Source: Synechococcus sp. PCC 6312
Lineage (GTDB): Bacteria > Cyanobacteriota > Cyanobacteriia > Thermosynechococcales > Thermosynechococcaceae
Direction: 5' to 3'
NCBI RefSeq assembly: GCF_000316685.1
Contig: NC_019680.1
Span: forward strand, 1,303,501-1,367,500
DNA length: 64,000 nucleotides
Part shown: positions 24,801 through 39,304 of the stretch, piece after piece
Numbering within the stretch: the stretch's first letter is position 1
How the letters are laid out: each line of letters begins with the position of its first letter
Position numbers and translations under genes: made by a program
Notes under the pieces: generated by a model
Database searches by the model: none
Told to the model about the DNA's origin: nothing
The model's input: the letters and a program-made list of their open reading frames with translations, nothing else

Positions 24801-24872
24801 TGGGCGATACTGGATTTGAACCAGTGACCCCTTCCGTGTGAAGGAAGTGCGCTACCCCTGTGCTAATCGCCC
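24801..24872 (-). tRNA. tRNA-Val (anticodon CAC)
   Basis: The 72-nt cloverleaf on the minus strand has acceptor arms GGGCGAT/ATCGCCC, a 5-bp anticodon stem CTTCC/GGAAG around loop TTCACAC (anticodon CAC, reading GUG), a T-stem ACTGG/CCAGT with loop TTCAAAT, and discriminator A. CCA is not encoded. The D-stem (GCAC/GCGC) has one A-C mismatch. The 5' half, nucleotides 1-37, is the attachment repeat of the element on its right, so its upstream DNA now belongs to the element. Confidence 0.93.
24836..24872. repeat. Left attachment site (attL), 37-bp direct repeat
   Basis: The 37 bp are identical to 39268-39304. They cover the tRNA-Val from its first nucleotide to the end of the anticodon loop. 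Confidence 0.9.
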
Positions 24873-24889
24873 GATCGCTAACGCTCTCT

Positions 24890-24905
24890 AACTGCTAAAG
24901 CAGTT
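24890..24905. promoter_or_regulatory. Small perfect hairpin between tRNA and integrase
   Basis: AACTGC (24890-24895) pairs with GCAGTT (24900-24905) across a TAAA loop. It lies 18 bp upstream of the tRNA 5' end, within element DNA. It could be an integrase or excisionase binding feature, or part of the new tRNA leader. Role unproven. Confidence 0.35.
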
Positions 24906-25069
24906 CCCATAAGGTTTATAGAGCTTCTTTAATATAACCGATTAAGTAAGACTTTTATAAAAGGTTTTTCTAATTGAGCCTTAAATAGGGTTTATTTAGT
25001 TCAATTTTAGTCGGATTTATTAAGAAGATTGTCAATAAACTTTTATTAGTGAACTAGAGAGCAAATTCT

Positions 25070-26179
25070 ATGGCTGAGACTTTTAGAATCGTTTTTAATA
25101 AAGAAAACCAAGCTTACAGAATTTACCTTGGGAATAGCAGATACCTTTATCTCGGTAAGGTGTCAGAGACAGTAGCCATGGCTATCCAATCAAGGATGCA
25201 GTCAGACCTAGCCCTAGGACAGTTTGACGCTACATTAGAGCGTTACAAGATAGATAACCCTTCTAAGCTTATTAAACAAGTTCCTAAAAGGGATATTAAA
25301 GAGCTTTCTTTAGAAGAGTTTTATCAAGTCTGGATAGAATCACTTAATCTAACTACAGCTAAATATAACGGTAAGTATTTAGAAGTAGGTAAGGTTATTA
25401 AGAGAGCTAGTGAGTATAAAGACTTACAAAAGGGATTGACCAAGATATTCAGTGAATACAAACTAGGAACTATTAAGACTTATAAGCCTTACTTGAATAA
25501 GTTCTTTCAATACTGCATTAAAGAAAGTTACTTAAAAGAAAATCCTCTAGAGTCTATTAAGCTTAATCCTGTAAAAAGTAGCAAGGATAATATTAAACCG
25601 CTAACTAAGTTAGAAGTAAATAAAATAATTGACTTATTCGCTACTAAATACCCTTACTATAGAGATTTAACTGAGTTTTTATTTATCACTGGAGTTAGAC
25701 CCTCAGAAGCTCTTTCTCTGAGTTGGGATAAGGTAAACTTTGAAGAAAACTACATTCTAATAGATGTTGCTATTGGGAAAGATAAAAGCTTATCACCTTA
25801 CTCTAATAGAAAACTTCTTAAAGAAACTAAGACTGGCATTAGTGGTAAGATTCCTTTAAGTAACAGGTTAAGAGAGCTACTTATAAGTAGATATGCTAAT
25901 TACTTAAAAGGAAACAGGAATAGTAAGAATCTTATCTTTCCTGGGTTAAAAGGTGGTTATCTAGATTGGTCTAAATACAGTGTTAAATGGAAAGCTGTTT
26001 TAACTGAATTAAATATAGTTTATAGAAACCCTTATCAAACTAGGCATACAGCCTTAAGTTATGTCGCATCTTCACAAGGGTTATTAGCTGCCGCTAAGTT
26101 AGCGAGACATACCAACTCAGTTACAGTGGCCAAGCATTATGCCCGATTCACGGGTGATCTAGAGTTACCGGATTACTAG
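25070..26179 (+). CDS. int: Tyrosine recombinase (integrase) of the element
   Basis: The 369-residue protein has an N-terminal arm-binding region (SRMQSDLALGQFDATLERYK, about 45-65), a core-binding helical domain (about 100-175) and a catalytic domain with the first arginine in GVRPSEALS (about 210), TRHTALSYVA (about 325), ARHTNS and the tyrosine nucleophile in VAKHYARF (about 357). It sits about 200 bp from attL, the usual place for an integrase acting on the adjacent tRNA site. The arm region resembles the relic at 24289-24640. The catalytic residues appear complete. It should carry out integration and, with an unidentified helper, excision. Confidence 0.95.
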   Translation: MAETFRIVFNKENQAYRIYLGNSRYLYLGKVSETVAMAIQSRMQSDLALGQFDATLERYKIDNPSKLIKQVPKRDIKELSLEEFYQVWIESLNLTTAKYNGKYLEVGKVIKRASEYKDLQKGLTKIFSEYKLGTIKTYKPYLNKFFQYCIKESYLKENPLESIKLNPVKSSKDNIKPLTKLEVNKIIDLFATKYPYYRDLTEFLFITGVRPSEALSLSWDKVNFEENYILIDVAIGKDKSLSPYSNRKLLKETKTGISGKIPLSNRLRELLISRYANYLKGNRNSKNLIFPGLKGGYLDWSKYSVKWKAVLTELNIVYRNPYQTRHTALSYVASSQGLLAAAKLARHTNSVTVAKHYARFTGDLELPDY

Positions 26180-26223
26180 GCTAGGTTAAAGTCTCTTAGA
26201 ACCTTTGCTGAGAGCTACCGCCT

Positions 26224-27315
26224 GTGACTTGGATTTACCTTGTCGGAACTGACCAGATACCCCTAATACAGGATTTATCTAATTCCGATCAAGTCTTAGT
26301 GGTAAAAGACGGTAGAACCAAGAGAATCTTACTTAGTAATTTTCCTGCTAGTGGTGGTGTTGGTGGTGATATAGAAGCTGAAGATATTCAAGGCTTAGTG
26401 AGCTTTATTCAAAATACCCAATTAACCGCTAATCAAATAACCGATTTATTAAACTTTATTCAATCAGTTAATTTAAGCACAAGTCAGATAACGGGATTAG
26501 TAAATTTAATTCAATCTACAACTATTCCAGCCGGGAATATAGAAGGATTAGTGAGTATAGTTCAAGCAACCCCTATAGAGTGGCAAAGCAAGAACACTAA
26601 TTTTAATGCGGTAGCTAACGCTAATTACTTAATTAATAACACTGCCAATCAAATCACTGTTACCTTACCTTCTAATCCTGCGACAGGTGACACAGTTAGG
26701 GCAATTTTGTTAGGTGACCAACCAGTTATATTTAACCGTAATAGCAATAAAATAAACGGAATTGAGTTAAACGGTTATACAACTATTAAATTCTTAATTC
26801 ACGAGTTGATATTTTTTGACTCTCAAATAGGTTGGGTTGTTACTCACTCAAACAGACCTAATCCACAAAAATTGCCATTGTATAACTTGTTAAGCTATTC
26901 CCCTACAGCTTTAGCTAGTTATACCTATGCGGGTTCTAATACTCTTAATTTAATAAATGACGGTAATCTAACTGTTGGGGCTGTAAAAAATGGCGGCGGA
27001 ACTGACTTTAGGATTAGATTAAGCTTTACTAATCAAGTTCTTATAAATAGAATCACTATTAACACTGGTCAATTTAACGGAAATTTTAATAATCCTACTT
27101 CTTTCCAGGTTTATTCAGGTAGTTCTATAACTGGTAATCCTATTTTTAGCTCTAGCCTAACTAAGACTACAGCTAGTCAAACTTTTGAATTATTAGAAAA
27201 CTCAAACTTCTTTAGCTCCTTTTCAGATATTTCTGTTTTATTTAGTGGTAATGCTGACAATACTTTACCTAATCAGTCTGTAGCAGAATTTAGATTATTT
27301 GGTCAACAATTATGA
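26224..27315 (+). CDS. Putative virion/tail-fibre-like protein with short repeats
   Basis: The 363-residue protein (GTG start at 26224) has a short N-terminal domain (DQVLVVKDGRTKRILLSNF), four approximate 20-residue repeats of the form I-x-G-L-V-x-x-I-Q-x-T (about 57-120), then beta-rich segments: ITVTLPSNPATGDTVRAIL, typical of fibre or trimer-forming phage proteins, and a C-terminal galactose-binding-like beta domain (INRITINTGQF...VAEFRLFGQQL ends). Its stop overlaps the next start. It is the first gene after the integrase on the same strand. Fibre or receptor-binding role is inference from repeat style. Confidence 0.6.
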   Translation: MTWIYLVGTDQIPLIQDLSNSDQVLVVKDGRTKRILLSNFPASGGVGGDIEAEDIQGLVSFIQNTQLTANQITDLLNFIQSVNLSTSQITGLVNLIQSTTIPAGNIEGLVSIVQATPIEWQSKNTNFNAVANANYLINNTANQITVTLPSNPATGDTVRAILLGDQPVIFNRNSNKINGIELNGYTTIKFLIHELIFFDSQIGWVVTHSNRPNPQKLPLYNLLSYSPTALASYTYAGSNTLNLINDGNLTVGAVKNGGGTDFRIRLSFTNQVLINRITINTGQFNGNFNNPTSFQVYSGSSITGNPIFSSSLTKTTASQTFELLENSNFFSSFSDISVLFSGNADNTLPNQSVAEFRLFGQQL

Positions 27316-38798: not shown

Positions 38799-38853
38799 GA
38801 TACCTTGACAAGGAGTATGGTTAAAAGTTTTTATAGGGGATACTTGACAAGGT
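38799..38853. repeat. Two operator-like repeats GATAC(C)TTGACAAGG
   Basis: GATACCTTGACAAGG ends at 38813 and GATACTTGACAAGG ends at 38852. The core CTTGACAAG is a palindrome around a central A and also contains TTGACA, a consensus -35. Paired copies 39 bp apart suggest operators overlapping promoters. Confidence 0.5.
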
Positions 38854-38914
38854 AAAATACTTCTGTTAAGGTAAATTCTATCAAGGGTAGATAACCCTTT
38901 AGGTCAGAAAAAAC

Positions 38915-38969
38915 ATCTAACTAGCTACTAAAAACTGTTGGTAAACGGATTTAAGAAACCTAGTTAGAT
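38915..38969. repeat. Long-loop perfect inverted repeat
   Basis: ATCTAACTAG (38915-38924) and CTAGTTAGAT (38960-38969) are exact complements with a 35-nt loop. It lies in a 500-bp gene-free stretch near the right end, beside the iterons. Confidence 0.5.
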
Positions 38970-39000
38970 TATCCCTTTAGAAAAGTCTATATAAACTCTC

Positions 39001-39134
39001 TTATATAGATATATATTTATATATATATATTTATATATAGGCAATTTTTTATTAAAGAGTTTTACTAAAAAGTTTTACTAAACAAAACAGACATAAGCTT
39101 TTATTAAACTCTTTTACTAAAGCAGTTTACCAAA
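39001..39134. other. Candidate replication origin: TA-rich tract and 13-bp-phased iterons
   Basis: A tract of almost pure A/T with TATATA runs (about 38990-39040) is followed by copies of TTTTAyTAAA starting at 39047, 39060, 39073, 39099 and 39112, and a degenerate one at 39126 (TTTACCAAA). Steps are 13, 13, 26, 13 and 14 bp, i.e. a 13-bp period with one missing unit. An easily melted tract beside phased iterons is the layout of plasmid and phage origins. No initiator was identified other than the helicase-like protein. Confidence 0.6.
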
Positions 39135-39267
39135 CAAAAAAGTACAAAATTTTATTGCTAACTTTTTTTAATTGTATATAAGAGCTATTGTATAACTTAG
39201 TCCTATCTTAGTTCAGTGTTACACTATAGGGACTATAACCCTTACCCCGCTTAAGCTGTTAGCCTCA

Positions 39268-39304
39268 GTGTGAAGGAAGTGCGCTACCCCTGTGCTAATC
39301 GCCC
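39268..39304. repeat. Right attachment site (attR), 37-bp direct repeat
   Basis: Identical to 24836-24872. It is the isolated 5' half of the tRNA-Val gene, left with its original upstream DNA on its right. Confidence 0.9.

Follow-up and report, generated by a model that had tools for sequence, protein, structure and literature searches.

A widespread family of integrated elements in cyanobacteria

The 64-kb stretch of DNA analysed here, hereafter the window, belongs to the 3.72-Mb, two-contig genome of the cyanobacterium Synechococcus sp. PCC 6312 (G000:C1:1303501-1367500) and carries a 14.43-kb element integrated at a tRNA-Val gene. This element is a member of a previously unrecognised, coherent and widespread family that lies outside every family tested, and it behaves like a temperate virus. 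It is probably the lysogenic form of a small temperate cyanobacterial virus from an undescribed lineage that makes its own tailless particle, the virion itself being predicted from gene content. No earlier description of the family was found in the literature searched; a phage-like Microcystis plasmid, NIES-298 P1, has been reported (PMC12510456) and is taken here as a candidate lead only.

When the 699-amino acid late protein of the element (fam0) was compared with 97 related genomes, nine genomes were tallied, besides weaker places, with 22-30% identity in other families of the class. An all-against-all comparison then delimited a syntenic module in which a second large protein (fam1, 471 amino acids in the window) is encoded behind fam0. 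A profile of fam1, the signature protein of the family, found matches in 60 of the 390 sampled genomes of the class (about 15%, E <= 1e-5), a few of them through the C-terminal domain alone, and in a draw from the phylum it found them in 27 of 386 genomes. The hosts include Stenomitos, Myxacorys, Microcoleus, Pseudanabaena, Pantanalinema and Elainella. Of 49 loci, 44 have fam0 immediately upstream of fam1 in the same orientation. A basic protein of about 200 amino acids, with a median isoelectric point (pI) near 10, occurs in 41 of the loci; 28 encode a small acidic protein (fam6/22/10), 26 a further acidic protein of about 80 amino acids and 25 the jelly-roll protein fam3. Members of the family are integrated at tRNA genes as elements of about 14-25 kb or exist as free circles, and two circular plasmids of about 20.8 kb, Allocoleopsis franciscana pMIC7113.08 and Tolypothrix sp. 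PCC 7601 unnamed14, carry a homologue of the 699-amino acid protein. A preliminary description of the element had proposed searching for syntenic copies in other tRNA genes; many complete ones exist, one of them with its excised circle assembled.

Integration and excision

The element is bounded by two attachment (att) repeats of 43 nt (24833-24875 and 39265-39307), which share an exact core of 37 nt and are spaced by 14,432 bp. The left copy occupies positions 24833-24872 of the only tRNA gene in the window, a tRNA-Val (CAC) on the minus strand (24801-24872; ARAGORN and Rfam). The size of about 14.4 kb given in the preliminary description is thus borne out by measurement, as is the presence of repeats with one copy inside tRNA-Val, although these had been called exact and are only 95% identical over their whole length. 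The iterons that it reported proved weak, consisting of short AT-rich repeats (39002-39120), which might mark a replication-origin-like region.

Most of the relatives examined, which measure 15.4-24.7 kb, are likewise flanked by exact or near-exact direct repeats of 45-118 nt at tRNA genes. As read from the repeats, the elements of genomes G195, G171 and G090 are inserted in tRNA-Phe, that of G303 in tRNA-Cys and those of G241 and G111 in other tRNA-like sequences. Excision as a circle was seen in the assembly of a relative, G303, rather than in the window strain itself: a separate contig of 18,288 bp (C5) is the exact circular form, of 18,287 bp, of the copy integrated at C7, and its halves join through a single 50-nt att that also flanks the integrated copy on both sides. 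Moreover, G185 carries two identical copies of 15,374 bp in tandem, with three att of 57 bp (L053/L096-L098, G185:C1:599651-630455), that is, a double integration. Site-specific integration and circular excision, the traits of a temperate integrative element, are therefore documented by the att repeats of the window and the circle of G303.

The att repeat of the window spans the 5' half of tRNA-Val, from its 5' end to the anticodon stem, unlike the usual 3' half, and the element sits on the promoter side of the gene. Integration consequently parts the tRNA from its original upstream region, so that the element must supply a promoter for tRNA-Val. The relatives in tRNA-Cys and tRNA-Phe, in contrast, use the 3' half.

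Gene content and the late proteins

Twenty proteins of the window were scanned with Pfam and PHROGs. Only the integrase, the endolysin, the XRE regulator and weak nuclease and ATPase matches emerged; none of the larger late proteins was recognised, and there was no credible match to terminase, portal, capsid, tail, Zot or conjugation families. The scan agrees with the preliminary description, which had seen no hallmarks of tailed phages, Zot-type elements or conjugation and had recognised an intact tyrosine recombinase, a late-like block with its own lysis pair, an opposing early-like block with one helicase-like ATPase and an XRE regulator. Indeed, a tyrosine integrase is encoded on the plus strand at 25070-26179 (PF00589, E 2.9e-16; phrog_1, E 2.4e-40), and the rightward block ends in a holin-like protein of 83 amino acids with a coiled coil and one transmembrane segment (33271-33522, plus strand), laid out like fam25 of the relatives, and an M15-family endolysin (33485-33907, plus strand; PF08291 Peptidase_M15_3, E 8.8e-18; phrog_894, E 4.5e-33). 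The leftward block holds a single SF3 (superfamily 3)-like ATPase, and divergent from it lies a regulator of the XRE/Cro-CI type (38237-38437, plus strand; HTH_3, E 3.4e-13).

Between integrase and lysis genes all open reading frames (ORFs) run on the plus strand. Fam0 (27787-29886), for which phmmer found homologues in 14 loci, is a spike-like protein whose alignment shows a hypervariable N-terminal part and a conserved C-terminal domain; across the family its N-termini are adhesin-like, being hypervariable or of collagen/coiled-coil type. In fam1 (29864-31279) the N-terminal half is hydrophobic and glycine-rich. Two separate genes, with the break at about residue 295, encode fam1 in L009, L013, G128, G253, G573 and G629, and in G253 and G573 they lie on opposite strands, which indicates that the protein consists of two independent domains.

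The structure of the 153-amino acid fam3 protein (27312-27773; hhalign 97.8% to fam3 of the relatives) was predicted with AlphaFold together with 17 relatives. The model has eight strands, with a predicted local distance difference test (pLDDT) score of 83, and in a Foldseek search of the PDB the coat proteins of potato leafroll virus (PLRV), turnip yellows virus (TuYV), satellite tobacco mosaic virus (STMV) and satellite panicum mosaic virus were among the best matches (E of about 2e-4 to 5e-4, probability 1.0, template modelling (TM) score 0.35-0.5), in a list that also contains TNF-like lectins such as the BC2L-C lectin and a phage cement protein. In a viral library 128 proteins matched at E 1e-3, among them a virion protein of a Synechococcus phage and uncharacterised proteins from Caudovirales. 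These models support an eight-stranded single jelly-roll fold, which the preliminary description had suggested looking for by structure prediction, without assigning it a specific role; fam3 is a candidate shell, cement or vertex protein.

A candidate major coat protein is the acidic fam22 protein of 76 amino acids (31675-31905; pI 4.1; hhalign 96% to fam22). It is a single copy of a domain of about 80 amino acids that occurs in tandem in most relatives. Modelled by AlphaFold together with 25 homologous domains, it forms a small alpha-beta domain of one helix and four strands (pLDDT 89.6), and a fold comparison of this model with the PDB gave no match better than E 0.75. Fam6 was considered as a relative of fam22/10 and rejected, since hhalign gives no link even though their layouts are alike. 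A very basic protein of 198 amino acids (32013-32609; pI 11.1) is a candidate DNA-condensing or coat protein and occupies the slot of the basic fam2/11/19 proteins of about 200 amino acids, while an acidic protein of 120 amino acids (32904-33266; pI 4.1) occupies that of the acidic fam5/28/31 proteins of about 80 amino acids. By hhalign neither has detectable homology to the slot proteins of the relatives, and it is by slot and charge that we infer their equivalence.

The layout of the module varies. In many relatives (L057, L059, L060, L073, L075, L076, L078, L081 and L083) it is split into two divergent cassettes, with small acidic and basic genes in one direction and jelly roll, fam0 and fam1 in the other. 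About 20 loci have near the late module a conserved basic ORF of about 70 amino acids, fam4 (e.g. L073:12984-13181 and L018:5140-5382), with the motif STRSRRAI..RYGRPY.Y.PR..LL.RL, often on the strand opposite to the adjacent late genes. A second, related type of element was seen in other cyanobacteria (L088, L089, L090 and L091), where the C-terminal domain of fam1 is fused into fam35, a protein of about 700 amino acids, accompanied by fam22 and a small basic protein. Beside the element of this type in L091 (1-6500, the start of G333:C4), at least six repeats of about 985 bp with the same small ORFs follow each other head to tail.

CRISPR spacers against the late block

Short matches of the element elsewhere in its own genome fall in two clustered regularly interspaced short palindromic repeats (CRISPR) arrays of 34 and 39 repeats (L163 and L164, G000:C1 ~1105000-1107600 and ~1147300-1150500), which share the same 36-nt repeat and hold some spacers twice. 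Seven of the 66 unique spacers match the element with 2-6 mismatches over 34-36 nt, compared with 11 or 12 mismatches for the best control match (an equal-sized host stretch and the shuffled element). All seven protospacers (27396-27429, 27680-27713, 28535-28569, 30421-30455, 30428-30462, 32741-32776 and 33066-33099) lie within the late block (27396-33099). Given these mismatches, the spacers seem to have come from relatives of the resident element. In G303, three of 41 spacers match the host's own element with 3-6 mismatches, against at least 13 in the control.

These spacers bear on the possibility that the element is a non-viral integrative plasmid, with surface adhesins and a cell-wall enzyme, that spreads for example by vesicles or natural transformation. 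Such a plasmid would account for the annotation of two relatives of about 20.8 kb as circular plasmids, for the plasmid-type RepA-like or HerA/FtsK-like ATPases of several relatives and for the lack of a known capsid. However, the seven CRISPR matches fall without exception within the late block, the proteins scanned from the window and from five relatives gave no match to conjugation or mobilisation genes, and PLSDB classes both plasmid relatives as non-mobilizable. Moreover, a co-oriented late block ending in holin-like and endolysin genes, an opposed early block under XRE control, adhesins with hypervariable tips and a jelly roll of viral type are more readily explained by a virus. We therefore regard a non-viral plasmid as quite unlikely.

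Packaging functions and possible helpers

The conserved late module encodes no ATPase. Most elements of the family have one larger ATPase of interchangeable type, namely a VapE/D5 SF3 helicase (often with DUF3854), a RepA/KaiC-like or a HerA/FtsK-like protein; the window element has the SF3-like one only (34479-35522, minus strand), recognised by motif inspection from a Walker A motif (GESRSGKST) and sub-threshold DUF927/DUF5906 matches, and no second ATPase. HerA/FtsK-like ATPases with Walker A motifs were noted in or near a few relatives (L010:13323-14513, L057:17549-18958, L086:1991-3472, and fam140 in L075 and L088), and in those few they could serve as a packaging or plasmid-transfer motor.

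An element without its own motor might be a satellite that excises and replicates by itself but borrows the capsid of a tailed helper phage, its late proteins redirecting the helper or decorating the particle. Its size and tRNA integration resemble those of known satellites, no capsid, portal, terminase or packaging ATPase was recognised in it, and the window host has one Terminase_6N gene (G000:C1:1122394-1123038), near one of the CRISPR arrays, which may mark a tailed prophage or its remains in this host. To evaluate helpers more generally, 30 element-bearing genomes were searched with Terminase_6N and phrog_2 (strong matches, E below 1e-15). Terminase_6N was found in five and a strong phrog_2 match in seven, leaving 23 of the 30, including G303 with its circle, without a clear terminase; weaker phrog_2 matches, in frames of about 330 amino acids, resemble chromosomal ATPases. 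With no ATPase in the late module and no clear terminase in most hosts, it is unlikely that the element depends on a tailed helper resident in the same genome, although a lytic helper would escape this count. In addition, a late module kept across the class with spike-like proteins, a jelly roll and lysis genes is atypical of satellites, and we consider this explanation unlikely.

A degenerate or very divergent tailed phage, with head and packaging genes lost or beyond recognition, would explain why fam0 or adhesin proteins of some relatives weakly match tail proteins through coiled-coil or collagen-type sequence. However, the same gene set is intact across many cyanobacterial families, a pattern that decay would not be expected to leave. 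When 123 proteins of five att-bounded relatives were scanned as above, integrase, primase/helicase and repressor matches were obtained, and no genuine head or packaging gene was found among the leading families. A PHROG 'portal' match (L105:5968-7407) was rejected as a ParB-like domain, and tape-measure and tail-fibre matches of some relatives as coiled-coil or collagen-like stretches, the tape-measure matches falling in coiled-coil stretches of fam0. It is thus highly improbable that the family derives from a decayed tailed phage.

Proposed life cycle

We propose that, upon release from the XRE repressor, the element would excise and the circle would replicate with its SF3-like ATPase (VapE-, RepA- or HerA-like in relatives), while the late block is switched on. 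The 76-amino acid acidic and 198-amino acid basic proteins may act as abundant shell and DNA-condensing proteins, in which case co-assembly with them would enclose the genome and no pumping motor would be needed. Together with the fam0-fam1 pair, the jelly-roll protein may form a surface vertex or spike for host recognition and DNA delivery, and the holin-like protein and endolysin would release the progeny. Parts of this cycle were observed directly: the integrase, att and tRNA layout in the window, circular excision of a relative, a late module without ATPase kept across the class, the jelly-roll protein and host CRISPR directed against the late block. A widespread tailless temperate lineage with a new alpha-beta coat, a basic DNA-condensing protein, a single jelly-roll vertex protein and a genome enclosed without a packaging motor is a more specific proposal, which we hold as tentative and open to considerable doubt.

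Several points weigh against an autonomous tailless virus. The particle is predicted from genes, and autonomous dsDNA (double-stranded DNA) viruses of this size usually have a packaging ATPase, none being conserved in the family. The jelly-roll sandwich is also known from lectins, cement proteins and tail fibres, and the Foldseek list includes the BC2L-C lectin and a cyanophage fibre domain; thus the 153-amino acid protein need not be a shell protein, and no copy of it was recognised in about half of the loci. The two coat candidates were chosen by position, charge, duplication and a slightly raised codon adaptation (0.70-0.71 vs 0.62-0.65), a signal not reproduced as GC3 (GC content at third codon positions) in relatives. 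CRISPR targets plasmids too, and four pattern scans of IMG/VR yielded no member of the family.

The preliminary description had left the choice between an undescribed small temperate virus family and a satellite. It named as support a jelly-roll or novel capsid fold or many complete syntenic copies, and as refutation late genes that are clearly homologous to those of a known family of tailed phages, plasmids or conjugative elements. As both kinds of support were found and such homology, which was looked for, was not, the undescribed virus is the favoured branch; the satellite branch is weakened by a conserved, adhesin-bearing late block with its own lysis genes and by the scarcity of terminases in the hosts. 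To our knowledge, well-studied cyanophages are all tailed. If our reading is true, about 15% of the cyanobacterial genomes sampled carry a tailless temperate lineage that is absent from the phage collections searched, and a common class of viruses has been missed by hallmark-based detection. The family also offers mapped loci, one circle caught after excision and the CRISPR records of its hosts for asking how 14-25 kb of DNA might be enclosed without a recognisable packaging motor.

Other genes of the element

A putative adhesin of 363 amino acids follows the integrase (26224-27315, plus strand), and its residues 122-206 match phrog_31104, of unknown function (E 9.2e-9). For two small plus-strand ORFs of the late block, one of 66 amino acids (31261-31461; hhalign against family proteins) and a basic one of 97 amino acids assigned by position (32611-32904), no homologue was found. 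In the leftward block, on the minus strand, lie ORFs of 100 (34132-34434, unknown), 92 (35606-35884) and 216 amino acids (35896-36546, unknown after the Pfam scan), a weakly supported nuclease-like gene (36558-36947; DUF1064 or Holliday-junction-resolvase-like, Pfam E 0.0014, PHROGs E 0.0025) and four small ORFs (37010-37240, 37252-37443, 37534-37803 and 37858-38049). Beyond the regulator there is one more minus-strand ORF, of 102 amino acids and unknown function (38449-38757).

Comparison with known viruses and mobile elements

A tblastn search of 50,697 phage records found no match to fam0, fam1, fam2 or fam3 proteins, the PDB gave nothing significant for the profiles of five families, and profiles of nine families detected no homologue in P23-77, IN93, PM2, PRD1 or FLiP. 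A fam0 match to VP20 of IN93/P23-77 was rejected as proline-rich low complexity, and an IMG/VR pattern match (L134) as a chance match to a T4-like fragment. As far as sequence comparison can tell, the family has no shell or packaging gene in common with any known virus tested, and surveys relying on hallmark genes would miss it.

Among tailless viruses, the Matshushitaviridae (Thermus phages P23-77 and the temperate IN93) are similar in having circular dsDNA genomes of 15-20 kb, an integrase in IN93, lysis genes and small single jelly-roll capsid proteins, the tailless particle being a prediction in our family. However, the jelly roll found here is of similar size but showed no homology to VP16 and VP17 (hhalign probability at most 1.1%), and the packaging ATPase of the P23-77 ORF13 type has no match to the conserved families. 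The likeness to tectiviruses raised in the preliminary description holds for size: Tectiviridae (PRD1) are also of about 15 kb and equipped with lysis genes, and they are tailless, as is predicted here, but neither a double jelly roll nor a P9 packaging ATPase nor a terminal protein/DNA polymerase was found in the family, and the best profile E-value against PRD1 ORFs was 0.058. Moreover, their genome is linear and protein-primed, as opposed to tRNA integration with direct repeats and circular excision (in a relative) here. Corticoviridae (PM2) and Finnlakeviridae (FLiP) share a small circular genome, a spike protein and the tailless state predicted for our family, but their genomes are of 9-10 kb, and no homologue of PM2 P2 or of the FLiP double jelly-roll major capsid protein was detected.

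The terminase large subunit, portal, HK97-fold capsid and tail genes of tailed phages (Caudoviricetes) had no credible match in Pfam or PHROGs among the 20 window proteins or, in the leading families, among the 123 proteins of relatives. In Inoviridae and pleolipovirus- or plasmavirus-like virions a small coat protein is combined with a large adhesin whose N-terminus varies, and there is no packaging motor, as proposed here, but no Zot-type ATPase was found with Pfam or PHROGs and no homology to them with PHROGs, and our element has an endolysin and a jelly roll. Finally, phage satellites and cyanobacterial tRNA islands, such as phage-inducible chromosomal islands (PICI)/P4-like elements, tycheposons and virion-encapsidated integrative mobile elements (VEIMEs), are alike in size, tRNA integration by tyrosine recombinases and a small replicase; tycheposons and VEIMEs were set apart by their description (PMC10187409 and general knowledge) and not by sequence. 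The family differs from all these islands in that its late module is conserved and includes spikes and lysis genes, and most of its hosts have no clear terminase.

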